From Terebella lapidaria (Eukaryota > Annelida > Polychaeta > Terebellida > Terebellidae): a stretch of 64,000 nucleotides of DNA. The notes below the pieces were generated by a model. That model saw only the letters and a list, made by a program, of their open reading frames with translations. It was not told where the DNA came from and did not search any database. The position numbers were made by a program, and so were the translations under genes. The stretch lies in the NCBI GenBank assembly GCA_949152475.1, contig OX424555.1, positions 11,798,868 to 11,862,867 on the forward strand, written 5' to 3'. This document shows, in pieces, positions 22,241 to 57,970 of this stretch. The stretch's first letter is position 1. The number at the start of each line of letters is the position of its first letter.

Positions 22241-25200
22241 ATGACCGATATGTTTCCCTTGATCCTGCTGTTGGTCCTGCCGTTGCTGGGCGCTGGACAA
22301 GGCCCGGGTGCTCAGTGCCTGTGTTTTCAGGAGTACGGCCACGGTGAGCTCTACAATCCCATCTCCCTCGGCCACATCAAGGACGACTCCGGGCACCTGC
22401 TTGTCGGCGAACAGCGCGGAGTCATTTGGGTCTTTGACAATAACGGCACGCGCCTGGAGAAGCCGCTTCTCAACATGACGGACACCGACATCACACTGCG
22501 CTCCGTGGTCGGACTGCTGAACTTTGCAGCGCATCCCGAGTACACCGACAACGGGCTACTGTACGTGCACTACACTGCCCTTTTGGCGGGGGAGTACTAC
22601 CAACGTGTCAGTGAGATGTCTCGGTCCCTTGAGGATCCCGAGGTCGTGGACCCCGACACAGAGAGGGTTCTACTCCAGGTCCACCAGGAGGAGGTGTTCG
22701 GTGGGCACCAGGGAGGAGGGGTAGGTCGTGTTAACCTGTCGAGCATTACTTGTGTAAACTCGTACTGGTAGCACTTGCAAATGTGTCTGTGGTTCACAAT
22801 GACAGCATGGGACAGGGCTGTAAATAAAATATATATCGTACTAAGGCGGACAAAACATTTAACGTTACGGATAGGCCTATATATACGTATTTAGTTAGTT
22901 CAAACAGTCCAATAGATCCTTGGCAAATTTCTGAAGAATGTCTCATGATGTCACAGATGAACACATTTGCAGTTACTATTTGGTGCGGACGGATATCTTT
23001 ACATTTCGTTCGGTGACGGTCACTGCTGCTACGACCCACTGGACCACGCTCAAAACAAGTAAGAGAGTTGGAATTCTACGCAAGATTTAGTACAATGGAC
23101 CCGTGATTCACCGACAAATGTGACCAAATTACTCCAACTACAGAAGCACGCCACATGGGTCAATACTGCGTGTGGACGTCCTCACCCGGACTGGAGACCT
23201 GCCGTACGGAATCCCCCCGGACAACCCATTCCTAACTGATCCCGAGGCCCTCCCAGAGATGTACGCCTACGGCCTGAGGAACGTCTACACCGCTAGCATG
23301 GACCAGGGACACCCGGACACTGGTATGCTCGCACTTCGAGGTCAAACCTACCAGAATTTGTCGTGGGATATAACGACAAATTCGTCAAGATGACGTGCGG
23401 ATCTTATACTTCGAAACTTATACTTCCTTTTGTTTTGCATGAATTAGAGATCTAAGATCTCTTTGACCATTATTAAGGTTATAGCAGAATTTTTTTTTTC
23501 TCTTCTTTTTTCCGCCGTTTTGGTTTCTGACCGATAACTTTAGTTTGCCTCGATGTATATTTTCCAAATTTTCAGCATTGGTCAGCATTGGACATATTAT
23601 GTGGATGACGCCTTTTGTTTTTCGGCCGGATCCGAGGTCCGTGAGTATGAAATCCATGTCGATTTTTGGACTTCGTTTCTGCACGATAACTCAAAAAGTA
23701 TTTTGCATGAAGGTTCATATACCAACAGGGAAGAACCCTATTGATTTTGAGATCAATCCATCAAACGACCTTTGACCTAAAGGTCGGAAGTAATCTTTGA
23801 GGTTTCCTGCATATCTTGGGAACGGTGCGTTGTATAGCGAAACGTTGTAGAGCGAAACATGTCTGGTATGAGGGATGACCTTTGACATTGGCCTTAAATT
23901 TTTTCGATGAGTTGGCCTTTTTCGTTTTCGTCGATATTTCGAAAACGGTGCGTCATAGAGCGAAACGGACATTATTTTCGGACTCGTCGCCCTAGACAAA
24001 CATGTCTTAAGGGTATTATGTATGACCTTTGACTTTGACCTTGAATTTTTTCGCTGAGTCGGCATTTTTCGTTCTCGTCGATATCTTGGAAATGGTATGT
24101 CGTAGAGCGAAACTCGTCGCAGTACACACACATGTCTAAGGGATATTATTATAGGTTATTGACTGGATACAGTGTTTGAGGCCCGAGGTCGTGTCTGGGC
24201 CGTAGCACGCACGAGCTTGCGAGTGCGTCCGCGGCACAGACATGACCGAGGGCCTCAAACACTGTATCCAGTCGATTAACTTATTATTATATGCCGCATT
24301 ATGATATGCATACCCCTCGGGAGAGACATGATTACAAATGCTGACATTTTCTAGCCATTTTAGACCCTGCAAGCAAATAATTTATGGACATTGTAGAATT
24401 TTCGTAGGCATATAATAATGGATGATTATTGACCTTGACCTTAATTTTTTTCGCTGAGTCAGCATTTTTCGTTTTCGTCGATCTCGGAAACGGTGCATTG
24501 TAGAGCGGAATGGATATTATTCTCGGACTCGTCACCCTAGACAAACATGTCTTATGGGTATTGAAGACTACCTGAAAGTTTTTTGCTGGGGCGGCATTTT
24601 TCATTTTCGTTGATATCTCGTAAACGGCGCATCGTAGAGCGAAACAGACCCTGAGCCGAATTCGTGTTTTGAGCATTTTGTTTTTTTGTTTGGTATCTCA
24701 GTACGGTTTGTCATACAGCAAAACGATGTCATTCGTGGCAAAAATATTATAAATGTTATAGGATAGTCTCTACACCGAAATGCCTCCAAGGCATCTTTAG
24801 ACCTTGACGTCTAGTTGTTCTTGTTGTTGTTCTTTCAGGCGAGGGTCGCGGGCGGATTTTCCTGGGTGACGTAGGAGACGAGACGTACGAGGAAGTGAAC
24901 GAGCTGGTGCGGGGTGGGAACTACGGCTGGCCCTTGTGGGAGGGTCCTCTCTGTCTACAGCCGGACGACTGTCAAAACATGGGTAGGTGATAGTTACATA
25001 GTGAACGAGCTGGTGAGAAGCGGGAACTACGGCTGGCCTCTGTGGGAGGGTCCTCTCTGTCTACAGCCGGACGACTGTCAAAACATGGGTAGGTGATAGT
25101 CACAGAGTGAACGAGCTGGTGAGAGGCGGGAACTACGGCTGGCCTCTGTGGGAGGGTCCTCTCTGTCTACAGCCGGACGACTGTCAAAACATGGGTAGGC

Positions 25201-26528
25201 GGTAGTTACAGAGTGAACGAGCTGATGAGAGGCGGGAACTACGGCTGGCCTCTGTGAGAGGGTCCTCTCTGTCTACAGCCGGACGACTGTCAAAACATGG
25301 GTAGGCGATAGTTACAGAGTGAACGAGCTGGTGAGAGGCGGGAACTACGGCTGGCCTCTGTGGGAGGGTCCTCTCTGTCTACAGCCGGACGACTGTCAAA
25401 ACATGGGTAGGCAGTAGTTACAGAGTGAACGAGCTGGTTCGAGGCGGGAACTAAGGCTGGCCTCTGTGGGGGGTCCTCTCTGTCTACAGCCATACGGCTG
25501 TCGACACGACGATAACAAATACATGTGGTATAAACAATTCTTGTCTGTTTGCTGATGTGCACGAATGGGTTTTAAAACTGCCAATCGCATACTGTCGATT
25601 CTGAAGGTCAGTCACTGACTATATACATCTACCAGCATGCATTTTTCGGACATGTCATCCTGGCATTATGTCTTGCCCGTCAGGTGTCGTGGAAAGTCCG
25701 GCTCTGTACTACAACCACTCTGTGGGACTGTGTGTGATCCTAGGCGGGGTGTACCGAGGGTGTATGAACCCTGGCCTCGAACAGTGGCTGCTCTACTTAG
25801 ACTACGCTTCAGGGTACGTCCAGTGTGTGGACATAGTTATGTATCTAGCACTGAATAATGACAATATACGTCTGGTAATGTGGATGGTGTGATAATGTCG
25901 CCTATGCATGATCTAGTTCACAAGTTTTTGACCCGTACGCTGGTTCCCCCAGAGCATTTCATTGTCCCATGAATCGACCAAATGATCAAATGGGTCGACC
26001 AAGTGCATGATTTGACTGGTGTCTCGTGTCCAATGACTACAAGACCAATGTTATCGTGTGTCACATCATCCCATTCCACAGAGCGGTATTTGGTGCCACA
26101 GAACAGCCAGGCGGGAGTTGGCAAGACGTGCTGATCCCCAACTGTGCCACGTGTCCAGGAGGACTGACCAACGAGTTCCTGCCTTTCGTCATGGGAATGG
26201 GCACTGACCAATCAGGTCAATATTGACACTGTGTCCACGCTCGCACTGCTCAGAGGATCGCAGCTGGAAGATTTTGTATTTATTTTGCAGGTGAAATGTA
26301 CTTCGGAGCTGTGGATTTCCCAAGTCCGATAGACACTGGTGGATCCGTGTACAAGATAGTCGATCCCAATAAGTATGCCTTGAAGCCTACCATTGTTTCT
26401 TAACTTCTAATAATTTAACATTTCCATTGCGTTTTTATACACATTAAGTCCTTTTCTCCTACGACATTAAGCAGAATCGTATGTTATCGTCTCGCAGTTC
26501 TGGAACACGTTGTATGTCGTTCGTTTGA
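22241..26528 (+). CDS. HHIPL1: HHIPL1-like secreted GSDH-domain protein (gene D)
   Basis: Exons 22241-22720, 22973-23058, 23144-23322, 24839-24982, 25684-25813, 26082-26215, 26291-26372 and 26498-26528 give about 421 residues in constant phase. A second in-frame ATG at 22250 begins an equally good signal peptide; 22241 is used here. Landmarks: [76 protein letters not shown] and VYKIVDPN, ending [10 protein letters not shown] from the 31-nt exon 8. The exon-4 donor (GTAGGT at 24983) is followed by five more tandem copies of the exon-4 3' end plus donor. Using any later donor would read M-G-R-stop from the first intron copy, so only the first donor gives full-length protein. AATAAA at 26612 marks the 3' end. 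Intron 3 carries repeats and a hairpin element. Confidence 0.9.
23790..24730. repeat. dispersed repeat in intron 3 of gene D
   Basis: The phrase GTAGAGCGAAAC or close variants recurs near 23850, 23957, 24094, 24502 and 24634, with TTTTTCGTTTTCGTCGATAT upstream and GACCTTTGACCTTGA-like phrases between. Units are irregular (about 105-170 bp) and diverged, and the block is interrupted by the hairpin at 24151-24285. Confidence 0.55.
24151..24285. mobile_element. near-full-length foldback element (hairpin)
   Basis: About 65-bp arms run from TAGGTTATTGACTGGATACA to the complementary TGTATCCAGTCGATTAAC at the other end, with ACAGTGTTTGAGGCCC matched in both arms at roughly 80% identity. Only a few bases form the loop. 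It may be a MITE or a small hairpin RNA source, and it lies inside the intron-3 repeat of gene D. Confidence 0.7.
24895..25505 (+). repeat. 106-bp tandem repeat of the exon-4/intron-4 junction of gene D
   Basis: GTGAACGAGCTG starts at 24895 (inside exon 4), 25001, 25107, 25213 (with one change), 25319 and 25425, exactly 106 bp apart. Each unit is the last 88 bp of exon 4 plus 18 bp of intron 4 and repeats the donor ATGG-GTAGG. The last copy is degenerate (GTGGGGGGTCC, altered end). Each unit also holds acceptor-like CTACAG and TTACAG. It lies between exon 4 and exon 5, so introns carry surplus splice sites. Confidence 0.93.
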
Positions 26529-26611
26529 GCAAGTTGGAAATCGAATCAATGACGCATCATGCAGTTCGTGTGGGGTCGATCAGCTCTCTGCCATTATTGT
26601 ACTGATTTTGC

Positions 26612-26617
26612 AATAAA
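26612..26617 (+). promoter_or_regulatory. polyadenylation signal of gene D
   Basis: AATAAA 84 bp after the stop of exon 8. It is conserved in the decayed D-like copy near 57950, which supports this 3' end. Confidence 0.65.
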
Positions 26618-26639
26618 AACATTTCATTTATGACAAAGG

Positions 26640-27083
26640 ACTCTTGCAATTCTATTAGGAATTCAATTAGTAGGGCTTGTAGGGAATACATATGACATAT
26701 CCTATAGCTGTTTGGTATGCTTGTAAACTTATTACATAGTATATTTCAGTTTGTTACACAATATGCACATACGTGACAAATTCCCTAGTGTTTCGAGTCA
26801 GCGGTTGTCTCAGCAGGCGTCACCATCACAACGAGAAACAAATACTATTTTAATCAATATGTAAGTCACAATGACCAAAGTAGGATACTAGTAACCAACA
26901 ATCGGTTTCACCTCCATGAATGCATCTTCTGATTCCCATTCTTCGTGTTCTATAAAAATCCTCGGTTTGAACTGTCGAATTCCAAGTTTCCATGTGCCAG
27001 AACGACCGACGCGCATGAGCAAATCAGAGCTGTCATTTAATCACGCAAAACGAAGTTTGCGGGCTTAAATGAGATATTTATAC
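26640..27083. other. intergenic, with a trace of a lost F-like 3' end
   Basis: Sequence near 26745-26835 (TTTCGAGTCAGCGGTTGTCT, CAGCAGG, ACCATCACAAC) matches the region around the last exon of gene F at 58141-58210, but the exon itself is deleted here. Together with 28195-28504 this marks an F-like gene once convergent with D. Confidence 0.5.
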
Positions 27084-27900: not shown

Positions 27901-28194
27901 ACCCCCGGTACCAAGAAGACACCGGGTCGGTTCCAGATTCGGGATCTAGAGCAACATAACTCAGCAGATGCCGAAGCACCAATCGATTCAGCAACAACAA
28001 ACCGGTACAACCACCAAACCGATACTACCACCAAGCCAGTATCTAGTCGGGGAGCATCTCCGAGCAAAAGTTGACGGGTCGCAATCACCACGCTCCCACT
28101 CTGATTTGGTGTAGGCGAACCCTAGAGGAACCGTTACATTACATTTGACCATAAATATGCCGCTTTGATGTCCAGACATGTCTATCCAGATTAC

Positions 28195-28504
28195 CAGCCT
28201 GGTCGGAGCCTCCCCAGAGGACGGCCCAAGGCTAGCGGATATTGGTCAGACCTTGTGGACATGTGGAGCACACGGGGATCACCCGTACATTCCAGGTAAT
28301 GTCTGGCTGTTCTCGGGCCCCCTATACAACTCTACGAGGAACAACGAGCCATCAAGCATGTGTCTTGTGTAAGGTTTCTGAAGGACTTCGGAAAATTGCC
28401 TCAGGAAACATTTGGTGATCCACGGATTCGCGTCATCGAATAAAACCACCCAAATATTAAGGTCCGGGCTCTGACAGCCTCTCTATATATAACTCCCATA
28501 ATTT
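28195..28504 (-). pseudogene. broken F-like HHIPL1 gene: exon 6 and truncated exon 5
   Basis: Minus-strand 28331-28195 aligns to exon 6 of gene F ([13 protein letters not shown] conserved, donor kept) but contains an in-frame TAG at the position of F residue Gln in NTRQT, plus a 3-nt insertion. Minus-strand 28504-28424 aligns to exon 5 of F (GRAVRARTL-like frame decay) and is cut at about 28504, where the 59-bp minisatellite begins. No exons 1-4 remain. It is the relic of an F-type gene that faced gene D, split by the GGTACC repeat. Confidence 0.75.
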
Positions 28505-31500
28505 CCCAACCCAGACCTGTACTCACCCATGTCAGCACACTCGGCCGGCTGGTGGCACACTGTCCCCTCTCAAACCTGTACCCACCCATGTCAACACACT
28601 CGTCCGGCTGGTGGCACAATGTCCCCTCCCAGACCTGTACTCACCCAAGTCAGCACACTCGGTCGGCTGGTGGCACAATGTCCCCTCCCAGACCTGTACT
28701 CACCCATGTCAGCACAATCGGCCGGCTGCTGGCACAATGTCCCCTCCCAGACCTGTACTCACCCAAGTCAGCACACTCGGCCGGCTGCTGGCACAATGTC
28801 CCCTCCCAAAACCTGTATTCACTCATGTCAGCACACTCTGTCGGCTGGTGGCACAATGTCCCCTCCCAAAACCTGTATTCACCCATGTCAGCACACTCGG
28901 CCGGCTGGTGGCACACTGTCCCCTCTCAAACCTGTACCCACCCTTGTCAGCACACTCGGCCGGCTGCTGGCACAATGTCCCCTCCCAGACCTGTACTCAC
29001 CCATGTCAGCACACTCGGCCGGCTGCTGGCACACTGTCCCCTCCCAGACCTGCACTCACCCATGTCAGCACACTCGGTCGGATGGTGGCACAATGTCCCC
29101 TCCCAGTCCTGTATCACCCATATCAGCACACTCGGCCGGCTGGTGGCACAATGTCCCCTCCCAGAACTGTACTCGCTCATGTCAGCACACTCGGCCAGCT
29201 GGTGGCACAATGTCCCCTCCCAGAACTGTACTCACCCAAGTCAGCACACTCGGCCGGCTGGTGGCACAATGTCCCCTCCCAGACCTGTACTGACCCATGT
29301 CAGCACACTCGGCTGGCTGGTGGCACATTGTCCCCTCCCAGAACTGTACTCACCCATGTCAGCACACTCGGCCGGCTGGTGGCACAATGTCCCCTCCCAG
29401 AACTGTACTCACCCATGTCAGCACACTCGGCCGGCTGGTGGCACAATGTCCCCTCCCAGAACTGTACTCACCCATGTCAGCACACTCGGCCGGCTGGTGG
29501 CACAATGTCCCCTCCCAGAACTGTACTCACCCAAGTCAGCACACTCGGCCGGCTGGTGGCACAATGTCCCCTCCCAGACCTGTACTGACCCATGTCGGCA
29601 CACTCGGCCGGTTGGTGGCACAATGTCCCCTCCCAGAACTGTACTCACCCATGTCAGCACACTCGGCCGGCTGGTGGCACAATGTCCCCTCCCAGAACTG
29701 TACTCACCCATGTCAGCACACTCGGCCGGCTGGTGGCACAATGTCCCCTCCCAGAACTGTACTCACCCAAGTCAGCACACTCGGCCGGCTGGTGGCACAA
29801 TGTCCCCTCCCAGACCTGTACTGACCCATGTCGGCACACTCGGCCGGCTGGTGGCACAATGTCCCCTCCCAGACCTGTACTCACCCATGTCAGCACACTC
29901 GGCCGGCTGGTGGCACAATGTCCCCTCCCAGACCTGTACTCACCCATGTCAGCACACTCGGCCGGCTGGTGGCACAATGTCCCCTCCCAGACCTGTACTG
30001 ACCCATGTCAGCACACTCGGCCGGCTGGTGGCACAATGCCCCCTCCTAGAACTGTACTATTCCATGTCGGCACACTCGGCCGGCTGGTGGCACTATGCCC
30101 CCTCGTAGACCTGTACTCACTCATGTCAGCACACTCGGCCGGCTGGTGGCACAATGTCCCCTCCCAGACCTGTACTCACCCATGTCAACACACTCGGCCT
30201 GCTGGTGGCACAATGTCCCCTCCTAGACCTGTGCTCACCCATGTCAGCACACTCGGCCGGCTGGTGGCACAATGTCCCCTCCCAGACCTGTACTGACCCA
30301 TGTCAGCACACTCGGCCAGCTGGTGGCACAATGCCCCCTCCCAGACCTGTACTGACCCATATCAGCACACTCGGCTGGCTGGTGGCACAATGCCCCCTCC
30401 CAGACCTGTACTCACCCATGTCAGCACACTCAGCCAGCTGGTGACACAATGTCCCCTCCCAGACCTGTACTGACCCATGTCAGCACACTCGGCCAGCTGG
30501 TGACACAATGCCCCGTCCCAGACCTGTACTCACCCATGTCAGCACACTCGGCCGGCTGGTGGCACAATGTCCCCTCCTAGACCTGTACTCACCCACATCA
30601 GAACACTCGGTCAGCTGGAGGCGCACTGTCCCTTCCCAGACCTGTACTCACCCATGTCAGCACACTCGGCCGGTTGCTGGCACAATGTCCCCTCCCAGAC
30701 TTGTACTCACCCAAGTCAGCACACTCGGCCGGCTGGTGGCACAATGTCCCCTCCCAGACCTGTACTCACCCATGTCAGCACACTCGGCCGGCTGGTGGCA
30801 CAATGTCCTCTACTAGACCTGTACTCACCCAAGTCAGCACACTCAGCCGGCTGGTGGCACTATGCCCCCTCGTAGACCTGTACTCACTCATGTCAGCACA
30901 CTCGGCCGGCTGGTGGCACAATGTCCCCTCCCAGACCTGTACTCACCCATGTCAACACACTCGGCCGGCTGGTGGCACAATGTCCCCTCCCAGAACTGTA
31001 CTCACCCAAGTCAGCACACTCGGCCGGCTGGTGGCACAATGTCCCCTCCCAGACCTGTACTGACCCATGTCGGCACACTCGGCCGGTTGGTGGCACAATG
31101 TCCCCTCCCAGACCTGTACTCACCCATGTCAGCACACTCGGCCGCCTGGTGGTACAATGTCCCCTACGAGACTTGTACTGACCCATGTCAGCACACTCGG
31201 CCGGCTGGTTGCACAATGCCCCCTCCTAGAACTGTACTATTCCATGTCGGCACACTCGGCCGGCTGGTGGCACTATGCCCCCTCGTAGACCTGTACTCAC
31301 TCATGTCAGCACACTCGGCCGGCTGGTGGCACAATGTCCCCTCCCAGACCTGTACTCACCCATGTCAACACACTCGGCCTGCTGGTGGCACAATGTCCCC
31401 TCCTAGACCTGTGCTCACCCATGTCAGCACACTCGGCCGGCTGGTGGCACAATGTCCCCTCCCAGACCTGTACTGACCCATGTCAGCACACTCGGCCAGC

Positions 31501-34013
31501 TGGTGGCACAATGCCCCCTCCCAGACCTGTACTGACCCATGTCAGCACACTCGGCTGGCTGGTGGCACAATGCCCCCTCCCAGACCTGTACTCACCCATG
31601 TCAGCACACTCGGCCAGCTGGTGACACAATATCCCCTCCCAGACCTGTACTGACCCATGTCAGCACACTCGGCCAGCTGGTGACACAATGCCCCCTCCCA
31701 GACCTGTACTCACCCATGTCAGCACACTCGGCCGGCTGGTGGCACAATGTCCCCTCCTAGACCTGTACTCACCCACATCAGAACACTCGGTCAGCTGGAG
31801 GCGCACTGTCCCTTCCCAGACCTGTACTCACCCATGTCAGCACACTCGGCCGGTTGCTGGCACAATGTCCCCTCCCAGACTTGTACTCACCCAAGTCAGC
31901 ACACTCGGCCGGCTGGTGGCACAATGTCCCCTCCCAGACCTGTACTCACCCATGTCAGCACACTCGGCCGGCTGGTGGCACAATGTCCTCTACTAGACCT
32001 GTACTCACCCAAGTCAGCACACTCAGCCGGCTAGTGGCACAATGCCCCCTCCCAGACCTGTACTCACCCAAGTCAGCACACTCTGTCGGCTGGTGGCACA
32101 ATGCCCCCTCCCAGACCTGTACACACCCATTTCAGCACACTCGGCCGGCTGGTGGCACAATGTCCCCTCCAAGACCTGTACTCACCCAAGTCAGCACACT
32201 CGGCCGGCTGGTGGAACAATGCCCCCTCCAAGATCTGTACTCACTCATGTCAGCACACTCGGCCGGCTGGTGGCACAATGCCCCCTCCTAGAACTGTACT
32301 CATCCATGTCAGCACGCTCGTCCGGCTGGTGGCACAATGTCTCCTCAGAGACCTGTACTCACTCATGTCAGCACACTCGGCCGGCTGGTGGCACACTGTC
32401 CCCTCCCAGACCTGTACTCACTCATGTCAGCACACTCGGCCGGCTGCTGGCACAATGTCCCCTCCCAGACCTGTTCTCGCCCATGTCAGCACACTTGGCC
32501 GGCTGGTGGCACAATGCCCCCTCCCAGACCTGTACTCACCCATCTCAGCACACTCGGCCGGCTGGTGGCACAATGCCCCCTCCCAGACCTGTACTCACCC
32601 ATCTCAACACACTCTATCGGCTGGTGGCACAATGCCCCCTCCCAGACCTGTACTCACCCATGTCAGCACACTCGGCCGGCTGGTGGCACAATGTCTTCTC
32701 CAAGACCTGTACTCACCCATGTGCACACTCGGCCGGCTGGTGGCACAATGCCCCCTCCCAGACCTGTACTCACCCATGTCAGCACACTCGGCCGCTGGTG
32801 GCACAATGTCCCCTCCTAGACCTGTACTCACCCATGTCAGAACACTCGGTCAGCTGGAGGCGCACTGTCCCTTCCCAGACCTGTACTTACCCATGTCAGC
32901 ACACTCGGCCGGCTGGTGGCACAATGTCCCCTCCCAGACTTGTACTCACCCGAGTCAGCACACTCGGCTGGCTGGTGGCACAATGTCCCCTCCCAGACTT
33001 GTACTCACCCGAGTCAGCACACTCGGCCAGCTTGTGGCACAATGTCCCCTCCCAGACCTGTACTCACCCATGTCAGCACACTCGGCCGGCTGGTGGCACA
33101 ATGTTTCCTCCCAGACTTGTACTCACCCGAGTCAGCACACTCGGTCAGCTTGTGGCACAATGTCCCCTCCCAGACCTGTACTCACCCATGTCGGCACACT
33201 CAGCTGGCGGGTGGCACGATGCCCCCTCCAAGACCTGTGTTCACCTATGTCAGCACACTCGGCCAGCTTGTGGCACAATGTCCCCTCCCAGACCTGTACT
33301 GACCCATGTCAGCACACTCGGCCGGCTGGTGGCACAATGCCCCCTCCCAGACCTGTACTGACCCATGTGCACACTCGGCCGGCTGGTGGCACAATGCCCC
33401 CTCCCAGACCTGTACTCACCCATGTCAGCACACTCGGCCGGCTGGTGGCACAATGTCCCCTCCTAGACCTGTACTCACCCATGTCAGAACACTCGGTCAG
33501 CTGGTGGCACAATGTCCCCTCCCAGACCTGAACTGACCCATGTCAGCACACTCGGCCGGCTGGTGGCACAATGTCCCCTCCCAGACCTGTACTGACCCAT
33601 GTCAGCACACTCGGCCAGCTTGTGGCACAATGTCCCTTCCCAGACCTGTACTCACCCATGTCGGCACACTCGGCCGGCTGGTGGCACAATGCCCCCTCCC
33701 AGACCTGTACTCACCTATGTCAGCACACTCGGCAGGCTGGTGGCACAATGTCTCCTCCGGGACCTGTGCTCACCTATGTCCGCACCCTCAGACGGCTGGT
33801 GGCACAAGATCCCCTTCCAGTTCTGTGCTCACCCATGTCAGCACACTCGGCCGGCTGGTGGCACAATGTCCCTTCCCAGACCTGTACTCACCCATGTCAG
33901 CACACTCGGCCGGCTGGTGGCACAGTGCCCACTCGGAGACCTGTGCTCACCCATGTCAGCAGCACGCTCGGCACGCTGGTGGCACATTGATCCTCCCAGA
34001 CCTGTACTCACCC
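28505..34013 (-). repeat. 59-bp minisatellite, array 1 (about 93 units)
   Basis: Read on the minus strand each unit is 43 bp of HHIPL1-like exon 4 (coding [14 protein letters not shown] in the G/H frame) followed by 16 bp of intron 4 starting GTGAGTACAG. Common variants change the donor to GTCAGT, or ATGG to TTGG; a few units lack 2 bp (57-bp units). A 20-unit segment (1,180 bp) is itself tandemly duplicated (about 30040-30860 versus 31220-32040). The array begins inside a truncated F-like exon 5 and ends in unique sequence upstream of gene G copy 1. Neither edge contains the rest of exon 4. Confidence 0.95.
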
Positions 34014-34431
34014 AAAATAACCAAAATAGCCATAATTATTTCACTACGTTTGCTTATTTATTTTTGTTTCCTTTGCTTTTTCCTGGTCTCTTTGTGATGT
34101 GTCCGTCCCTTAACCAATGCCGTTCACCTGTACAGGACTACCACAATCCATTCGTTACTGGTTGTAACAAATCCTCTGGATCATCGATATAATCCTAAAT
34201 CATTAAATGAACGTGTAAGTTCTATTGAGCAACGGAAATTTTGATTTTATGTAAAGAGGCAAGATAACATGTCTATGGGATATGTGTACAGTGATTGTTG
34301 GCCTTGAGTCAGTGCACGAGGACACATCTAAGACATATGTCGGTGTCCCAGACAGTGATTAGAGACATAATAACTATAGCTCAATATGTGTTTCCGTGCA
34401 TTTGGTATTTCAGCAATCGACGAAGACGACT

Positions 34432-35157
34432 ATGTCGGTCCCGTTATTTCTGTCTGTTGCAGTTGTTCTCCTGGCTCTAGTCGGGACTTCCGGTGCTCAG
34501 CTAGGTTCTGGGGCTGAGTGCGTGTGCTTCCAGGAGTTCGGTGGTGGTCTGCTCTTCAACCCGATAGCCATCAGATCCTTTAACGATGGCACGAGGCGAA
34601 TGCTAGTGGCCGAGCAGCGGGGTATGATCTGGATCTTCAGTGCACAAGGCGTACGGGACCCCGAACCATTCCTTGACATGCGGGAGACTGAGCTCTTTTT
34701 CAGCCACGGTTTGCTCAGCTTTGCCTTACACCCGCAATATAGCGAGAATGGCCGGATCTACCTGCACTACTCGGTCCAGGGCAATGACACATACTACCAG
34801 CGCCTGAGTGAAATGACCCGCTCGACCACGGACCCTGACACCATAGACCCTTCCACAGAGCGCGTGGTCTGGGACGTCGATTTCGGTCCGGAACATGATC
34901 CCTTTCTCGCACACGTGGGCGGCGGGGTGAGTGGTATCAGATATCGTGAGTGATATCCCGAAACAATCCTTTTCTTTCTGTATTGGAAATTGCATTATCA
35001 GATTTCACTATACTTCGCCTTACACCCGCTTATGACAAATATCTCAAACTATATATCTTGCATACATATAGCTCGTGTTCGGAAATGACGGTTATCTGTA
35101 CGCTGGCTTTGGGGACGGTCAATGCTGCATGGATCCATATGACAACGGCCAAAACGA
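34432..35157 (+). CDS. HHIPL1: gene G exons 1-2, duplicate copy 1 (5' part only)
   Basis: Exon 1 (34432-34926) and exon 2 (35072-35157) encode a signal peptide, [25 protein letters not shown], and [16 protein letters not shown], identical to copies 2 and 3 except the last exon-2 codon (AACGA versus AACAA). The frame is intact. No exon 3-8 follows before the next copy, so this is either a 5' fragment or an alternative first-exon pair splicing to the distant exon 3 at 44003. The exon-2 donor is GTCCGG, a poor match to consensus. A stronger GTGAGT lies in frame 135 nt downstream (35293). A TATTTCAG upstream of the ATG may end a 5'-UTR intron. Confidence 0.75.
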
Positions 35158-35426
35158 GTCCGGATTATCATGTTTCCTTGCTTCTATCATTGTGATTACG
35201 AGAAAGTTAATGTTCTCACTCATGTCTTCACTTAGTGTGTCGTTTTTGATGAGATTGGATGTTAGATGGAAGAACGCAGACTTGGGGGGAGGGTGAGTTG
35301 GGGCGGGCGGCGGACCAGGAGGTTGAGCATACCAAAAACAATTTCTTCATCATGCGACACCTAGCTCTTTCACATGGAAGCCTATATGTGACATGCGCCG
35401 ATTTTCACGTCTTTTCTGAAAAAAAG

Positions 35427-35905
35427 TTCGTTCACACGTGGAAGCATTTGGAATTCCCCGTTCGCACGTAGAAAACAATTTAAACTATCATATTCACACG
35501 TGAAAACAGTAAAGTTTATTGCATTCACACGTACATGTGTCAATAACTATTAAGTTCACGCGTGGAAGCATTTAAACCATGTCCGCACGTAGAAAGTTCG
35601 AGGCTACCGCGTTCACACGTGGAAGCATGTATAATGCTTCCACGTTCGCACGTGCAAAGTTTTAATACTAATGAGTTCATACGTAGAGAGATTCAAAACT
35701 ACCACCTTCGCACGTGGAAAGATTCAAAGCTACCACGTTCACACGTGGGTGTGGCAGCGCCAAATGTTTCCACGTGTGAATGTGGTGGTTTGAATCCTTC
35801 TACGTGTAAACGTAAAGCTAACATCTTTCCACCTGCCAATGTGATATACCGGAAGTTTCTAAGTGCGAATGTGAAGGCGTTAAACATGTGAACGTGGTAG
35901 CTTTG
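35427..35905. repeat. degenerate CACGTG-containing repeat with internal inversion, copy 1
   Basis: Roughly 30-bp units built on GTTCACACGTGGAAGCATTT and variants (TTCGCACGTAGAAA) run in one orientation to about 35755, then continue as the reverse complement (CCACGTGTGAATGTGG) to 35905. It lies in intron 2 of the G block. CACGTG is an E-box palindrome, but the unit is a repeat and regulatory function is not shown. Confidence 0.7.
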
Positions 35906-35992
35906 AACTTTTTAGTTTGAACGTGATAGTCGCCGCCCCCCTCCCCTCGAAAAGACAGTATTTTTCCCCACGCATGGCATCTATGGGCTTCC

Positions 35993-38127
35993 TGTACCTG
36001 TACTCAACCAAGTCAGCACACTCGGCCGGCTGGTGGAACAATGCCCCCTCCAAGATCTGTACTCACTCATGTCAGCACACTCGGCCGGCTGGTGGCACAA
36101 TGCCCCCTCCTAGAACTGTACTCATCCATGTCAGCACGCTCGGCCGGCTGGTGGCACAATGTCTCCTCAGAGACCTGTACTCACTCATGTCAGCACACTC
36201 GGCCGGCTGGTGGCACACTGTCCCCTCCCAGACCTGTACTCACTCATGTCAGCACACTCGGCCGGCTGCTGGCACAATGTCCCCTCCCAGACCTGTTCTC
36301 GCCCATGTCAGCACACTTGGCCGGCTGGTGGCACAATGCCCCCTCCCAGACCTGTACTCACCCATCTCAGCACACTCGGCCGGCTGGTGGCACAATGCCC
36401 CCTCCCAGACCTGTACTCACCCATCTCAACACACTCTATCGGCTGGTGGCACAATGCCCCCTCCCAGACCTGTACTCACCCATGTCAGCACACTCGGCCG
36501 GCTGGTGGCACAATGTCTTCTCCAAGACCTGTACTCACCCATGTGCACACTCGGTCGGCTGGTGGCACAATGCCCCCTCCCAGACCTGTACTCACCCATG
36601 TCAGCACACTCGGCCGGCTGGTGGCACAATGTCCCCTCCTAGACCTGTACTCACCCATGTCAGAACACTCGGTCAGCTGGAGGCGCACTGTCCCTTCCCA
36701 GACCTGTACTTACCCATGTCAGCACACTCGGCCGGCTGGTGGCACAATGTCCCCTCCCAGACTTGTACTCACCCGAGTCAGCACACTCGGCTGGCTGGTG
36801 GCACAATGTCCCCTCCCAGACTTGTACTCACCCGAGTCAGCACACTCGGCCAGCTTGTGGCACAATGTCCCCTCCCAGACCTGTACTCACCCATGTCAGC
36901 ACACTCGGCCGGCTGGTGGCACAATGTTTCCTCCCAGACTTGTACTCACCCGAGTCAGCACACTCGGCCAGCTTGTGGCACAATGTCCCCTCCCAGACCT
37001 GTACTCACCCATGTCGGCAAACTCAGCTGGCGGGTGGCACGATGCCCCCTCCAAGACCTGTGTTCACCTATGTCAGCACACTCGGCCAGCTTGTGGCACA
37101 ATGTCCCCTCCCAGACCTGTACTGACCCTTGTCAGCACACTCGGCCGGCTGGTGGCACAATTCCCCCTCCCAGACCTGTACTGACCCATGTGCACACTCG
37201 GCCGGCTGGTGGCACAATGCCCCCTCCCAGACCTGTTCTCACCCATGTCAGCACACTCGGCCGGCTGGTGGCACAATGTCCCCTCCTAGACCTGTACTCA
37301 CCCATGTCAGAACACTCGGTCAGCTGGTGGCACAATGTCCCCTCCCAGACCTGTACTCACCCATGTCAGCACACTCGGCCGGCTGGTGGCACAATGTCCC
37401 CTCCCAGACCTGTACTGACCCATGTCAGCACACTCGGCCAGCTTGTGGCACAATGCCCCTTCCCAGACCTGTACTGACCCATGTGCACACTCGGCCAGCT
37501 GGTGGCACAATGTCCCCTCCCAGACCTGTACTGACCCATGTGCACACTCGGCCGGCTGGTGGCACAATGCCCCCTCCCAGACCTGTACTCACCCATGTCA
37601 GCACACTCGGCCGGCTGGTGGCACAATGTCCCCTCCTAGACCTGTACTCACCCATGTCAGAACACTCGGTCAGCTGGTGGCACAATGTCCCTTCCCAGAC
37701 CTGTACTCACCCATGTCGGCACACTCGGCCGGCTGGTGGCACAATGCCCCCTCCCAGACCTGTACTCACCTATGTCAGCACACTCGGCAGGCTGGTGGCA
37801 CAATGTCTCCTCCGGGACCTGTGCTCACCTATGTCCGCACCCTCAGACGGCTGGTGGCACAAGATCCCCTTCCAGTTCTGTGCTCACCCAAGTCAGCACA
37901 CTCGGCCGGCTGGTGACACATTGTCCCCGCCCAGACCTGTACTCACCCAAGTCAGCACACTCGGCCGGCTGGGGGCACAATGTCCCCTCCCAGACCTATA
38001 CTCACCCATGTCAGCACACTCAGCCGGCTGGTGGCACAGTGCCCACTCGGAGACCTGTGCTCACCCATGTCAGCAGCACGCTCGGCACGCTGGTGGCACA
38101 TTGATCCTCCCAGACCTGTACTCACCC
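35993..38127 (-). repeat. 59-bp minisatellite, array 2 (about 36 units)
   Basis: Same unit and orientation as array 1 and collinear with its last 1.8 kb, but about 300 bp (five units) longer. Several 57-bp units occur near 36540, 37190, 37480 and 37545. It forms the 5' half of duplication copy 2. Confidence 0.93.
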
Positions 38128-38545
38128 AAAATAACCAAAATAGCCATAATTATTTCACTACGTTTGCTTATTTATTTTTGTTTCCTTTGCTTTTTCCTGG
38201 TCTCTTTGTGATGTGTCCGTCCCTTAACCAATGCCGTTCACCTGTACAGGACTACCACAATCCATTCGTTACTGGTTGTAACAAATCCTCTGGATCATCG
38301 ATATAATCCTAAATCATTAAATGAACGTGTAAGTTCTATTGAGCAACGGAAATTTTGATTTTATGTAAAGAGGCAAGATAACATGTCTATGGGATATGTG
38401 TACAGTGATTGTTGGCCTTGAGTCAGTGCACGAGGACACATCTAAGACATATGTCGGTGTCCCAGACAGTGATTAGAGACATAATAACTATAGCTCAATA
38501 TGTGTTTCCGTGCATTTGGTATTTCAGCAATCGACGAAGACGACT

Positions 38546-39271
38546 ATGTCGGTCCCGTTATTTCTGTCTGTTGCAGTTGTTCTCCTGGCTCTAGTCGGGA
38601 CTTCCGGTGCTCAGCTAGGTTCTGGGGCTGAGTGCGTGTGCTTCCAGGAGTTCGGTGGTGGTCTGCTCTTCAACCCGATAGCCATCAGATCCTTTAACGA
38701 TGGCACGAGGCGAATGCTAGTGGCCGAGCAGCGGGGTATGATCTGGATCTTCAGTGCACAAGGCGTACGGGACCCCGAACCATTCCTTGACATGCGGGAG
38801 ACTGAGCTCTTTTTCAGCCACGGTTTGCTCAGCTTTGCCTTACACCCGCAATATAGCGAGAATGGCCGGATCTACCTGCACTACTCGGTCCAGGGCAATG
38901 ACACATACTACCAGCGCCTGAGTGAAATGACCCGCTCGACCACGGACCCTGACACCATAGACCCTTCCACAGAGCGCGTGGTCTGGGACGTCGATTTCGG
39001 TCCGGAACATGATCCCTTTCTCGCACACGTGGGCGGCGGGGTGAGTGGTATCAGATATCGTGAGTGATATCCCGAAACAATCCTTTTCTTTCTGTATTGG
39101 AAATTGCATTATCAGATTTCACTATACTTCACCTTACACCCGCTTATGACAAATATCTCAAACTATATATCTTGCATACATATAGCTCGTGTTCGGAAAT
39201 GACGGTTATCTGTACGCTGGCTTTGGGGACGGTCAATGCTGCATGGATCCATATGACAACGGCCAAAACAA
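38546..39271 (+). CDS. HHIPL1: gene G exons 1-2, duplicate copy 2 (5' part only)
   Basis: Exon 1 38546-39040 and exon 2 39186-39271, protein identical to copy 1 over exon 1. Same weak GTCCGG exon-2 donor, same in-frame GTGAGT 135 nt downstream (39407). No exon 3-8 precedes the next block, so it is a 5' fragment or an alternative first-exon pair of gene G. Confidence 0.75.
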
Positions 39272-39540
39272 GTCCGGATTATCATGTTTCCTTGCTTCTA
39301 TCATTGTGATTACGAGAAAGTTAATGTTCTCACTCATGTCCTCACTTAGTGTGTCGTTTTTGATGAGATTGGATGTTAAATGGAAGAACGCAGACTTGGG
39401 GGGAGGGTGAGTTGGGGCGGGCGGCGGACCAGGAGGTTGAGCATACCAAAAACAATTTCTTCATCATGCGACACCTAGCTCTTTCACATGGAAGCCTATA
39501 TGTGACATGCGCCGATTTTCACGTCTTTTCTGAAAAAAAG

Positions 39541-40019
39541 TTCGTTCACACGTGGAAGCATTTGGAATTCCCCGTTCGCACGTAGAAAACAATTTAAACT
39601 ATCATATTCACACGTGAAAACAGTAAAGTTTATTGCATTCACACGTACATGTGTCAATAACTATTACGTTCACGCGTGGAAGCATTTAAACCATGTCCGC
39701 ACGTAGAAAGTTCGAGGCTACCGCGTTCACACGTGGAAGCATGTATAATGCTTCCACGTTCGCACGTGCAAAGTTTTAATACTAATGAGTTCATACGTAG
39801 AGAGATTCAAAACTACCACCTTCGCACGTGGAAAGATTCAAAGCTACCACGTTCACACGTGGGTGTGGCAGCGCCAAATGTTTCCACGTGTGAATGTGGT
39901 GGTTTGAATCCTTCTACGTGTAAACGTAAAGCTAACATCTTTCCACCTGCCAATGTGATATACCGGAAGTTTCTAAGTGCGAATGTGAAGGCGTTAAACA
40001 TGTGAACGTGGTAGCTTTG
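39541..40019. repeat. CACGTG-containing repeat, copy 2
   Basis: Same as 35427-35905 within duplication copy 2, nearly identical. Confidence 0.7.
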
Positions 40020-40106
40020 AACTTTTTAGTTTGAACGTGATAGTCGCCGCCCCCCTCCCCTCGAAAAGACAGTATTTTTCCCCACGCATGGCATCTATGG
40101 GCTTCC

Positions 40107-41891
40107 TGTACCTGTACTCAACCAAGTCAGCACACTCGGCCGGCTGGTGGAACAATGCCCCCTCCAAGATCTGTACTCACTCATGTCAGCACACTCGGCC
40201 GGCTGGTGGCACAATGCCCCCTCCTAGAACTGTACTCATCCATGTCAGCACGCTCGGCCGGCTGGTGGCACAATGTCTCCTCAGAGACCTGTACTCACTC
40301 ATGTCAGCACACTCGGCCGGCTGGTGGCACATTGTCCCCTCCCAGACCTGTACTCACTCATGTCAGCACACTCGGCCGGCTGCTGGCACAATGTCCCCTC
40401 CCAGACCTGTTCTCGCCCATGTCAGCACACTTGGCCGGCTGGTGGCACAATGCCCCCTCCCAGACCTGTACTCACCCATCTCAGCACACTCGGCCGGCTG
40501 GTGGCACAATGCCCCCTCCCAGACCTGTACTCACCCATCTCAACACACTCTATCGGCTGGTGGCACAATGCCCCCTCCCAGACCTGTACTCACCCATGTC
40601 AGCACACTCGGCCGGCTGGTGGCACAATGTCTTCTCCAAGACCTGTACTCACCCATGTGCACACTCGGCCGGCTGGTGGCACAATGCCCCCTCCCAGACC
40701 TGTACTCACCCATGTCAGCACACTCGGCCGGCTGGTGGCACAATGTCCCCTCCTAGACCTGTACTCACCCATGTCAGAACACTCGGTCAGCTGGAGGCGC
40801 ACTGTCCCTTCCCAGACCTGTACTTACCCATGTCAGCACACTCGGCCGGCTGGTGGCACAATGTCCCCTCCCAGACTTGTACTCACCCGAGTCAGCACAC
40901 TCGGCTGGCTGGTGGCACAATGTCCCCTCCCAGACTTGTACTCACCCGAGTCAGCACACTCGGCCAGCTTGTGGCACAATGTCCCCTCCCAGACCTGTAC
41001 TCACCCATGTCAGCACACTCGGCCGGCTGGTGGCACAATGTTTCCTCCCAGACTTGTACTCACCCGAGTCAGCACACTCGGCCAGCTTGTGGCACAATGT
41101 CCCCTCCCAGACCTGTACTCACCCATGTCGGCACACTCAGCTGGCGGGTGGCACGATGCCCCCTCCAAGACCTGTGTTCACCTATGTCAGCACACTCGGC
41201 CAGCTTGTGGCACAATGTCCCCTCCCAGACCTGTACTGACCCATGTCAGCACACTCGGCCGGCTGGTGGCACAATGCCCCCTCCCAGACCTGTACTGACC
41301 CATGTGCACACTCGGCCGGCTGGTGGCACAATGCCCCCTCCCAGACCTGTACTCACCCATGTCAGCACACTCGGCCGGCTGGTGGCACAATGTCCCCTCC
41401 TAGACCTGTACTCACCCATGTCAGAACACTCGGTCAGCTGGTGGCACAATGTCCCCTCCCAGACCTGTACTCACCCATGTCAGCACACTCGGCCGGCTGG
41501 TGGCACAATGTCCCCTCCCAGACCTGTACTGACCCATGTCAGCACACTCGGCCAGCTTGTGGCACAATGTCCCTTCCCAGACCTGTACTCACCCATGTCG
41601 GCACACTCGGCCGGCTGGTGGCACAATGCCCCCTCCCAGACCTGTACTCACCTATGTCAGCACACTCGGCAGGCTGGTGGCACAATGTCTCCTCCGGGAC
41701 CTGTGCTCACCTATGTCCGCACCCTCAGACGGCTGGTGGCACAAGATCCCCTTCCAGTTCTGTGCTCACCCATGTCAGCACACTCGGCCGGCTGGTGGCA
41801 CAGTGCCCACTCGGAGACCTGTGCTCACCCATGTCAGCAGCATGCTCGGCACGCTGGTGGCACATTGATCCTCCCAGACCTGTGCTCACCC
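40107..41891 (-). repeat. 59-bp minisatellite, array 3 (about 30 units)
   Basis: Same unit and orientation, about 350 bp (six units) shorter than array 2. It carries the longest uninterrupted forward frame of the window (606 codons, 40155-41975), a consequence of a stop-free unit whose length is not a multiple of three. Confidence 0.93.
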
Positions 41892-42309
41892 AAAATAACC
41901 AAAATAGCCATAATTATTTCACTACGTTTGCTTATTTATTTTTGTTTCCTTTGCTTTTTCCTGGTCTCTTTGTGATGTGTCCGTCCCTTAACCAATGCCG
42001 TTCACCTGTACAGGACTACCACAATCTATTCGTTACTGGTTGTAACAAATCCTCTGGATCATCGATATAATCCTAAATCATTAAATGAACGTGTAAGTTC
42101 TATTGAGCAACGGAAATTTTGATTTTATGTAAAGAGGCAAGATAACATGTCTATGGGATATGTGTACAGTGATTGTTGGCCTTGAGTCAGTGCACGAGGA
42201 CACATCTAAGACATATGTCGGTGTCCCAGACAGTGATTAGAGACATAATAACTATAGCTCAATATGTGTTTCCGTGCATTTGGTATTTCAGCAATCGACG
42301 AAGACGACT

Positions 42310-45300
42310 ATGTCGGTCCCGTTATTTCTGTCTGTTGCAGTTGTTCTCCTGGCTCTAGTCGGGACTTCCGGTGCTCAGCTAGGTTCTGGGGCTGAGTGCG
42401 TGTGCTTCCAGGAGTTCGGTGGTGGTCTGCTCTTCAACCCGATAGCCATCAGATCCTTTAACGATGGCACGAGGCGAATGCTAGTGGCCGAGCAGCGGGG
42501 TATGATCTGGATCTTCAGTGCACAAGGCGTACGGGACCCCGAACCATTCCTTGACATGCGGGAGACTGAGCTCTTTTTCAGCCACGGTTTGCTCAGCTTT
42601 GCCTTACACCCGCAATATAGCGAGAATGGCCGGATCTACCTGCACTACTCGGTCCAGGGCAATGACACATACTACCAGCGCCTGAGTGAAATGACCCGCT
42701 CGACCACGGACCCTGACACCATAGACCCTTCCACAGAGCGCGTGGTCTGGGACGTCGATTTCGGTCCGGAACATGATCCCTTTCTCGCACACGTGGGCAG
42801 CGGGGTGAGTGGTATCAGATACCGTGAGTGATATCCCGAAACAATCCTTTTCTTTCTGTATTGGAAATTGCATTATCAGGTTTCACTATACTTCGCCTTA
42901 CACCCGCTTATGACAAATATCTCAAACTATATATCTTGCATACATATAGCTCGTGTTCGGAAATGACGGTTATCTGTACGCTGGCTTTGGGGACGGTCAA
43001 TGCTGCATGGATCCATATGACAACGGCCAAAACAAGTCCGGATTATCATGTTTCCTTGCTTCTATCATTGTGATTACGAGAAAGTTAATGTTCTCACTCA
43101 TGTCCTCACTTAGTGTGTCGTTTTTGATGAGATTGGATGTTAAATGGAAGAACGCAGACTTGGGGGGAGGGTGAGTTGGGGCGGGCGGCGGACCAGGAGG
43201 TTGAGCATACCAAAAACAATTTCTTCATCATGCGACACCTAGCTCATTCACATGGAAGCCTATATGTGACATGCGCCGATTTTCACATCTTTTCTGAAAA
43301 AAAGTTCGATCACACGTGGAAGCATTTGGGATTCCCCGTTCGCACTTAGAAAACAATTTAAACTATCATATTCACACGTGAAAACAGTAAAGTTTATTGC
43401 ATTCACACGTACATGTGTCAATAACTATTACGTTCACGCGTGGAAGCATTTAAACCATGTTCGCACGTAGAAAGTTCGAGGCTACCGCGTTCACACGTGG
43501 AAGCATGTATAATGCTTCCACGTTCGCACGTGCAAAGTTTTAATACTAATGAGTTCATACGTAGAGAGATTCAAAACTACCACCTTCGCACGTGGAAAGA
43601 TTCAAAGCTACCACGTTCACACGTGGGTGTGGCAGCGCCAAATGTTCCCACGTGTGAATGTGGTGGTTTGAATCCTTCTACGTGTGAACGTAAAGCTAAC
43701 ATCTTTCCACCTGCCAATGTGATATACCGGAAGTTTCTAAGTGCGAATGTGAAGGCGTTAAACATGTGAACGTGGTAGCTTTGAACTTTTTAGTTTGAAC
43801 GCGATAGCCGCCGCCCCCCCCCCCCCCCCCCCTCGAAAAGACAGTATTTTTCCCCACGCATGGCATCTATGGGCTTCCGTATATTCACGGCCACATAATA
43901 GGCACGAGGACATTTTTAAACCTCGCATTAATCCCCCTAAAAAAGTTACTGTTGTCGTACGTAACATGAACTGCATATTTTAGTCGATTGCTGTCCGCAT
44001 AGGAGCACTCCCCAGGCAACCGTCATCCGTATAGACGTAGACTCCAGGACAGGGGATCTGGAGTACGGGATCCCCCCGGACAATCCTTTCTTGGACGATC
44101 CCGAGGCCATTCCAGAGCTGTACGTGTACGGAGTCAGACAGGGTTACACCCTCGCCATGGACCAGGGACACCCAGACACAGGTCAATTACGCGCCTCATG
44201 TCAGTTTTAATCGTAGTCACGTTGTCATTCTGCATCTATATGGACGAAAATCATTGGGAAAATCTCTCAGTTGTACACTCACGGACTCACAAACTATGGT
44301 TACCATACACTTATAAAGCGTTCATTGATCGCAGCCTCAGAAGAGGCGCTAAAAACACAATAAGCTCTTTCTGGTACTCCAGGTGAAGGTCGGGGCCGCC
44401 TGTTTGTCGGCGATGTCGGACAGGATTCCTTCGAGGAGGTCAACGAGTTGTTCCCAGGCGACAACTACGGCTGGCCACTCTGGGAGGGGACATTGTGCCA
44501 CCAGCCGGCCGAGTGTGCTGCCATGGGTGAGTACAGTTCTGCGAGGGGACATTGTACTGCCAGCCGACCGGGTGTTCTGACATGGTTGAGTACAGGTCTA
44601 GGAGGGGACATTGTGCCATCAGTCGGCCGAGTGTGCTGACTTGGGTGAGCACAGGTCCAGGAGGGGACAGTGTGCCACCAGCCGGCCGAGTATGCTGACC
44701 TGGGTGAGTATAGGTCTGGGAGGGGACATTGTGCCACCAGCCGGCCGAGTTTGCTGACCGGGGTGAGTACAGGTCTTGGGAGGGACATTTTGCCACCAAC
44801 CGACCGAGTGTGTTGACCTGGGTGAGTATAGGTCCAGGAGGGGACAGTGTGCCACCAGCCGGCCGAGTTTGCTGACCGGGATGAGTACAGGTCTTGGGAG
44901 GGACATTTTGCCACCAGCCGACCGAGTGTGTTGACCTGGGTGAGTATAGGTCCAGGAGGGGACAGTGTGCCACCAGCCGGCCGAGTGTGCTGACATGGGT
45001 GAGTACAGGAGAATGTTTGTACATGTACAAATTTTGTACTAACGAACAATGTTATCGATGGCCTAAACACAAATCGAATGACTGCAGACATTTTTTGTTT
45101 ATTTTTACAGAACAGTACACAGAGCCTATCATAACCTACAATCGCTCGGTGGGCATATGTGTGATACTGGAGGGAGTATACCGTGGTTGAGCAAGTCCAA
45201 ACTTGGCCGGCTGGATGATGTTCCTCGACTTCGGGAATCCGTGCGTTCATGAGTCCTAGAGATGAACATTGTACATGTTATTGTTACTGTCATTGAGCTC

Positions 45301-54154: not shown

Positions 54155-54425
54155 CAATCCGTAGTTCCCAACTCCCACCAGCTCGTTCACTCTGTAACTA
54201 TCGCCTACCCATGTTTTGACAGTCGTCTGGCTGTAGATAGGGAATTCCCTCCCACAATGCCTGCCGTAGTTTCCGCTTTTCACCAGTTCGTTCACTCTGT
54301 AACTGTCGCCTACCTATGTTTTGACAGTCACCCGGCTGTAGACAGAGAGGACCCTCCCACATATTCCAGCCTTAGTTCCCGCCTCGAACCAGCTCGTTCA
54401 CTCTGTAACTATTGCCCGCCTACAT
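54155..54425 (-). pseudogene. D-type exon-4 junction repeat, relic (about 2.5 units)
   Basis: On the minus strand, GTTACAGAGTGAACGAGCTG, AACTACGG and CAGACGACTGTCAAAACATG repeat with the 106-bp spacing of the gene D array, diverged and with small deletions. The donor context ATGGGTAGGCGATAG is kept in one unit. No other D exon is next to it. It shows that the junction repeat already existed before, or was copied with, a now-lost D-type gene. Confidence 0.8.
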
Positions 54426-57125: not shown

Positions 57126-57217
57126 AACTTTATCTGGACACAATTCTTATTTCTGTGGGTTGTCTTTTGTGTATCTGATTTCTCAGTATCTTGAGTGCAT
57201 CACTGAAGTTCTCAACA

Positions 57218-57970
57218 TGGGTTGGCAAGAGTTACAGAGTGAACGAGTTGGTGTATCTCTTCGTCTCCATGAAGTGCTGTGAACTAGGCCCTTTTTCTTT
57301 AGTTGTACGAGTACTTTCTTTATCAATGTCTCCATCTGCCATAGTCTTGTTTAATCACGGTAGATTTTTACAATTAACACCAGTCATCTTGAAATTCTTT
57401 ATTTGACATCAGTCAGAAATCCACGTATAACAGATTCAGCCACTTAGATTCGTGTACTCTGTAGTTTACAAGTTGGGAAAAAGGCTACAACTTTTCATAT
57501 GTGCATGTAGTTCTATAGCAGTCGCTGGATCTATGGGAAACTATTCTTGGTGCCACACTTTGGCCGTAGCAGGTACTGACCAATCAGGTCGTTACTGACA
57601 CAGGGCTGACGCTCGCACTGTTCAGAGGATCGCAACTTTTTGTATTTATTTTGTAGGTGAAAGGTACTACGAGAGCTGTGGATCCGTGTATAAGATTGTC
57701 GATCGCAATAAGTGCGCTTCACAGCCTAACAATGTTTCCCAATTGCTATTAATGCAACATGTCCATTGCGTTTGTATACATCCTATTTCCTTTTCTCCTA
57801 CGACATTAGGCAGAATCATATGTTATCATCTCGCAGTTCTGGAACACCTTGTATGTCGTTCGTCTGAGCAAGTTGGAAATCGGATTGATGACGTATCATG
57901 AAGTTCGTGTGGGGTCAATCAGCTCTCTGCCATTATTGTACTGATTTTGCAATAAATACATTTCAGTTAT
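57218..57970 (+). pseudogene. D-like HHIPL1 3' end, relic
   Basis: ATGGGTTGGCAAGAGTTACA and GAGTGAACGAGTTGGTG near 57218 recall one D junction unit. 57540-57588 is exon 6 with a large deletion (TTGGTGCCACA then GGTACTGACCAATCAGG). 57657-57712 is exon 7 with an internal deletion (GATCCGTGTATAAGATTGTC, GATC). 57836-57900 matches D exon 8 and 3' UTR (TTCTGGAACACCTTGTATGT), and AATAAA-like sequence is kept near 57950. Overall this mirrors 26190-26830. The relic faces gene F, as D faces the F relic at 28195. Confidence 0.75.

Follow-up and report, generated by a model that had tools for sequence, protein, structure and literature searches.

Detached and in-gene minisatellites built from the exon 4/intron 4 boundary of HHIPL-type genes in the annelid Terebella lapidaria

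A stretch of 64,000 nucleotides from the polychaete Terebella lapidaria, hereafter the window (positions 11798868-11862867 of the 100.8-Mb contig OX424555.1 in GenBank assembly GCA_949152475.1, 762 Mb in 438 contigs), carries a cluster of HHIPL-type genes, recognized by exon matches, together with three large arrays of a 59-bp tandem repeat. The repeat unit is the end of HHIPL exon 4 joined to the start of intron 4, 5' splice site included, and tandem repeats cover the same boundary within genes of the cluster. The anatomy of the arrays and the neutral reading of their units make it very probable that we are dealing with a minisatellite of the type called a mirage, repeatedly born at one exon end and then rearranged. 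The end of HHIPL exon 4 also seems to be prone to copying, a conclusion that we hold less firmly than the anatomy.

Repeat periods and copy numbers were determined with Tandem Repeats Finder (TRF) on the whole window, and cyclic alignment to the consensus gave 176 pieces, six of which (two in each of arrays 1-3, with more than three gaps) were set aside. The units kept number 93, 36 and 30 in arrays 1-3, nine in gene G and two in gene H; for the three arrays TRF reported 93.3, 36.3 and 30.3 copies, so that the approximate counts of 93, 36 and 30 in an earlier sequence-only reading of this DNA hold. The consensus differs from the genuine exon 4/intron 4 junction of gene H at 1 of 59 positions and from that of gene G at 2 of 59, which excludes chance. 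That reading had set TRF and the alignment of the consensus to genes G and H beforehand as a check; the consensus aligns across both the exon and the intron part, and the central claim of an exon end reiterated together with its 5' splice site is borne out over the 93 units of array 1. Read on the minus strand, each unit of arrays 1-3 consists of the last 48 bp of an HHIPL-type exon 4 followed by 10-11 bp of intron 4. The limits of the copied part are set by the genes themselves: beyond the last copy the intron runs as GTGAGTACAGG-AGAATG in gene G and as GTGAGTACCAG-AGAATG in gene H, resuming with AGAATG and not with the unit. The 43 + 16 bp unit proposed earlier therefore describes the same cycle in another phase, not the part that was truly copied. 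The 48 + 10-11 bp unit spans the exon-intron boundary in G, H and arrays 1-3 alike; the repeats of G, H and paralogue B lie at their own gene's boundary, and arrays 1-3 and a relic at 54 kb lie detached. A 46-bp core of the unit has 25 exact matches in the genome, all in the window and one of them in gene H, in a search confined to the exact pattern and so blind to diverged copies elsewhere. No 59- or 106-bp period was found in the 9.1 kb to the right of the window (L045), where other tandem repeats are present.

The flanks reveal how array 1 is set among its neighbors. Its left end is joined directly to exon 5 of a degraded H2-type paralogue, in which positions 28138-28502 are 82% identical to 58395-58753 and the matched exons contain stops; on its right it abuts segment E, an inverted G-type gene start, at the 5' flank of the latter. 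No 5' portion of an exon 4 was found at either end. All three arrays read in the minus sense, opposed to the adjoining plus-strand G-type starts. The joint between intron 2 and array is identical before arrays 2 and 3, and in gene G intron 2 extends on to exons 3-7. A run of 28 units in array 3 agrees with the right end of array 1 at 99.6%, as does a run of 25 units in array 2 at 99.2%, whereas the rows of array 1 share a mean pairwise identity of 86.8% (95 rows, two partial rows counted). Together with the shared joint, these values indicate that segmental duplication of roughly the last 30 units of array 1, its right third, along with a 5' gene fragment gave rise to arrays 2 and 3. The roughly 160 decoy copies counted in the sequence-only reading are correct as a number (159 units), but they are one 93-unit array and two copies of its right third, not three separate expansions. 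Within array 1, a run of 14 units recurs at a distance of 20 units, a pattern expected from unequal exchange.

The units show no sign of selection on the splice donor. The donor GT is intact in 88 of 93, 33 of 36 and 27 of 30 units of arrays 1-3 (148/159 in all, as the earlier description of a mostly intact donor had it) and in 7 of 9 units of gene G. Yet preferential conservation of the donor was not found in array 1 units: the donor 9-mer ranks 42nd among 59 windows and the GT dinucleotide 24th, and donor positions diverge by 6.5% against 5.3% for the remaining positions (p=0.25), or by 7.1% against 5.7% when the 72 distinct units are taken (p=0.20). Codon positions 1, 2 and 3 diverge by 6.5, 4.7 and 4.7% (p=0.39), and the exon and intron parts do not differ either (p=0.84). 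This profile is what neutral drift and array turnover give. A search for RNA structure was negative for the consensus dimer (z = -1.18; 20 of 200 shuffles did as well or better), and Rfam gave no match at gathering score in the window. A scan of 33900-34500 for bacterial promoters found one against 1.1 expected, a result without meaning in animal DNA. Exact copies of the E. coli Chi octamer number 68, 27 and 23 on the plus strand of arrays 1-3; Chi acts in bacteria, and we therefore give these occurrences no weight. On the plus strand, antisense to the units, arrays 1 and 3 are crossed by open frames of 518 and 606 aa (28552-30108 and 40155-41975), because the unit has no stop triplets in this direction.

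The same exon end has been copied in other HHIPL paralogues. Paralogue B carries an array of a 105/106-bp unit, made of about 89 bp of exon and 17 bp of intron, at the same exon 4/intron 4 boundary. A genome-wide search with this unit found nine places, all in the window; it failed to report a 40-bp fragment at 57214-57253, so small pieces can escape it. A genome-wide search with exons 3 and 4 gave 65 matches (150 of 165 candidates were scored; the counts are lower bounds for the genome), comprising 12 exon-3 loci, 12 exon-4 loci and 41 others that we read as repeat units of the arrays and of the 54-kb relic. Exon copies lie within about 1.5 kb of 4 of the 12 exon-4 loci (G, H, B and C16) and of none of the 12 exon-3 loci (one-sided Fisher p=0.047). 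The C16 case is an HHIPL gene on a separate contig (L046, C16:2800001-2810000; L020), in which a 65-bp stretch of the exon-4 end recurs at 61 of 65 positions in intron 4, 113-114 bp downstream. In a tree from a short alignment G and H group together (99/97), C16 groups with H2 (92/87), a gene free of copies, and B takes no firm place; a larger tree, from which C16 was left out, joins B to H2 (98/70), with G falling outside them.

Several observations weigh against repeated birth at a favored site. The C16 copy ends 5 bp short of the donor and so does not span the boundary, which makes it a near relative of a mirage and not a mirage. Genes G and H share one event, so that 4 of 12 loci correspond to about three events and the Fisher test, which takes G and H as separate, overstates a contrast that is barely significant. 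The independence of B from G and H is drawn from differing unit ends and from trees with weak inner branches, and exchange between neighboring paralogues of the cluster may be an alternative to it. The comparison covers exon-3 and exon-4 loci of HHIPL, a single gene family. The joint at which the 59-bp unit was born, TACAG-G-TCTGGG in G and H, shares no bases between its breakpoints by eye, so slippage between direct repeats is not evident, and the joint does not account for the recurrence at this site. The slippage-prone junction suggested in the sequence-only reading is supported to some extent by the recurrence in different paralogues, but not by the joint. In paralogue B, the intron past the original breakpoint is lost, so the joint is only partly readable; the copied intron piece ends near an AG both there and in G and H. 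The motif GGGAGGG lies near the exon-4 end at 7 of the 12 loci, including all four with copies, an association seen by eye and too weak to claim. Since any gene has several boundaries and some tandem repeats will straddle one, the anatomy could stand as described while the repeated copying at one exon end was a coincidence. For that step alone we consider coincidence possible but rather unlikely, given about three events at the same exon end, in different paralogues and with different unit lengths, and no exon-3 locus with copies. A fair count from the sequence comparison would be about three copying events at one exon end.

The history that we propose begins in the common ancestor of genes G and H, where the joint common to both places a tandem duplication that took in 48 bp from the end of exon 4 and 10-11 bp from the start of intron 4. 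The copy was probably tolerated because the genuine first donor would still be spliced and the extra copies would stay intronic. Exons 4 and 5 of gene H would form a continuous open frame when spliced from the first donor. Consensus units appended to exon 4 of gene H run into a stop in the second unit, so that splicing at later donors would in most cases disrupt the protein. Unequal exchange would then have enlarged the repeat, to two units in H, nine in G and 93 in array 1. One large array came to lie apart from its parent gene, between exon 5 of a different paralogue, now decayed, and an inverted G-type start, presumably through rearrangement. Two further duplications of a block comprising about 30 units, the 5' flank and exons 1-2 would have produced arrays 2 and 3, with the units of the arrays drifting neutrally. 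Separately, the exon-4 end would have been copied in paralogue B (105/106 bp) and, as one donor-less copy, in the C16 gene, with a copying-prone exon end as the presumed cause of the recurrence.

Other explanations assign the arrays a role or deny their reality. The sequence-only reading had suggested that the arrays, if transcribed, sequester U1 or splicing factors, offering up to 159 donors as a functional decoy. Besides the intact GT in most units, GTGAGT is present in 100 of 159 units, and GGTGAGT is confined to the sense strand of arrays 1-3 (54, 20 and 16 times, against none on their other strand), compared with ten occurrences, seven and three on the two strands, in the 54,048 bases outside the four 59-bp arrays. 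The donor positions, however, are conserved no better than others, and on the side from which sense transcription would enter, array 1 faces an inverted gene start, with no minus-strand HHIPL exon, array units aside, found between array 1 and 54 kb. U1 is very abundant in animal cells, so that a single locus with 159 sites would hardly be able to titrate it. We find titration highly improbable and do not retain the earlier suggestion. A role nearer to the genes would be that of a U1 platform which protects and lengthens divergent transcripts of the HHIPL cluster: each of arrays 1-3 lies head to head with a G-type HHIPL exon 1, starting 418 bp upstream of its start codon, and a divergent upstream transcript from the G-type promoter would read 30-93 consecutive U1 sites. 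This pairing was carried along by the segmental duplication. Against the platform, the minus strand bears a poly(A) signal at 34062, in the stretch that separates array 1 from the gene start, and a divergent transcript would tend to terminate there without reaching the array. We give the platform a barely appreciable chance.

The arrays could also be an artefact of assembly, with repeats collapsed or falsely expanded, because near-identical adjoining blocks (99.75%) are hard to assemble and copy number can be wrong. We judge this very unlikely, as the arrays lie within a 100.8-Mb contig, the units of array 1 differ from one another, array 2 exceeds array 3 by six units, and the joint after the segment in E and F is unlike that in gene G. 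Finally, the exon part of each unit is preceded at a short distance by an AG and followed by a GT, and the open frames reach 606 aa, features which would fit a repeat that codes for protein or gives rise to new exons. This candidate was rejected on the early stop in the second appended unit and the unbiased codon positions and has next to no probability; 59 is also no multiple of 3, and the open frames are antisense and follow from the stop-free unit. The mirage-type neutral minisatellite remains our reading of the arrays.

The founding paper on mirages is reportedly that of Canestro et al. 2002. According to the available excerpts of PMC3087553, amphioxus globin genes carry minisatellite-like tandem duplications of exon-intron boundaries, the Adh3 cases being termed mirages, with units of 10-72 bp in Adh3 and 150-160 bp in the globins; regular splicing is seemingly undisturbed, length and somatic instability occur, and the mechanism of boundary repeats is called unclear. 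Further mirages, in PGBD5 (60 and 108 bp) and TnC, are given in the excerpts of PMC3902484. A minisatellite centered on a splice donor, which the sequence-only reading called unusual, is not without precedent; judged by these excerpts, the lancelet mirages are of the same kind (PMC3087553, PMC3902484). In the lancelet genes (Adh3, BflGb6/BflGb9, PGBD5 and TnC), as here, tandem repeats run across an exon-intron boundary and many units keep their splice signals (here 148/159, and 7/9 in G), and the units of 59 and 105/106 bp fall inside the reported range of 10-160 bp. Tolerance through the first donor would likewise be as reported for the Adh3 and globin mirages. The repeats of G, H and B fit the term mirage, and arrays 1-3 are detached derivatives of such a repeat. 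Unlike the lancelet mirages as described in these excerpts, the repeats here number up to 93 units, the largest arrays lie away from their gene, fused to other sequence, and one boundary has been copied in at least two paralogues.

Human internal tandem repeats likewise represent minisatellites that expanded in recent paralogues; according to the portion of PMC2812944 available, they alter paralogues in segmental duplications, average 30-bp units repeated four times with half in coding sequence, and at exon-intron boundaries may create introns. Here, there is no sign of use. Intronic minisatellites are on record in other invertebrates, in intron 3 of an abalone TSSK1-like gene (PMC6905558) and intron 1 of an earthworm metallothionein gene (PMC12783039), and the available parts of these two papers mention no exon end in the unit. 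We found no published case of arrays detached from their gene, of an exon boundary in about 93 copies or of paralogues in which such repeats were born repeatedly, in a literature search that covered subscription journals poorly and is weak evidence of absence. The kind of repeat is known. The arrays show that boundary repeats can become detached from their gene, grow to nearly 100 copies and travel in local segmental duplication, and one exon end copied about three times with sister genes spared amounts to a small natural experiment on causes in sequence, replication and transcription.

The features of the window are collected in Table 1. The model of gene H2 contains a GSDH domain (PF07995, E 2.2e-36), and hedgehog-interacting protein stands at the top of its relatives of solved structure. 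Named proteins reach at most 45% identity among the best 120 matches listed in each HHIPL search. In the larger tree, four proteins of the window form one clade (100/100), which is separate from two Branchiostoma belcheri sequences and adjoins three unnamed proteins (97/93, midpoint root). The coding exons of paralogue B are open across the matched stretches, and for gene H exon 3 is matched at 92% beyond the window, at C1:11868453-11868611.

Table 1. Repeat arrays, segments and HHIPL-type genes of the window (positions in the window)
Feature	Positions	Strand	Description
Array 1	28510..34014	-	93 units of 59 bp; TRF 93.3 copies; detached from exons 1-4
Array 2	35996..38128	-	36 units; TRF 36.3 copies
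Array 3	40110..41892	-	30 units; TRF 30.3 copies
Gene G in-gene array	44479..45009	+ (opposite orientation)	9 units at exon 4/intron 4; TRF 9.0
Gene H units	62301..62415	-	2 units: genuine exon-4/intron-4 junction and one duplicate
Paralogue B array	24894..25502	+	106-bp unit, 5.8 copies, same exon-4/intron-4 boundary
B-type relic	54159..54416	-	Detached; 105/106-bp repeat, 2.4 copies
40-bp fragment	57214..57253	+	Resembles joint of B-type unit
Degraded H2-type paralogue, exon 5 to exon 6	28138..28509	-	Joined directly to left end of array 1
Segment E	34015..35990	+	G-type 5' flank, exon 1, exon 2, part of intron 2; ends at array 2
Segment F	38129..40104	+	Same content as E, 99.75% identical to E; ends at array 3
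E/F-type segment in gene G	41893..43878	+	99.0-99.2% to E and F, gaps left out
Gene A	exon 1 near 19.8 kb	-	Exon matches
Gene B	from 22.2 kb	+	Exon matches
G-type starts E and F		+	Truncated, exons 1-2 only; exon matches
Gene G		+	Matches to exons 1-7
Gene G exon 4	44383..44526	+	With intron 4, source of unit
Gene G exon 5	45111..45240	+	In-frame TGA
Gene H2	60.5-58.3 kb	-	Exon matches
Gene H	exon 4 at 62.5 kb	-	Exon matches
Gene H exon 4	62368..62511	-	Open

Some further elements lie among these features. A second minisatellite at 27133-27865, with a 54-bp unit and also a 161-bp period, is rich in GGTACC; it adjoins the degraded H2-type paralogue, at under 1 kb from array 1. Each G-type segment holds in its intron 2 a 31/62-bp tandem repeat with inverted self-similarity (35584-35748, 39698-39862 and 43460-43626), near the joint of the segmental duplication. 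The 3' end of gene B (26200-26818) recurs in plus orientation at 57572-58166 with 81% identity, directly behind gene H2. Open reading frames at 47214-48808, 51683-53056 and 55542-56423 resemble remnants of elements with a reverse transcriptase and no long terminal repeats, the second of them having proteins with a reverse-transcriptase domain at 40-56% among the matches listed. At 6596-7557, the window contains 134/360-bp tandem repeats rich in TGACCTTGAA / CAAGGTCA.

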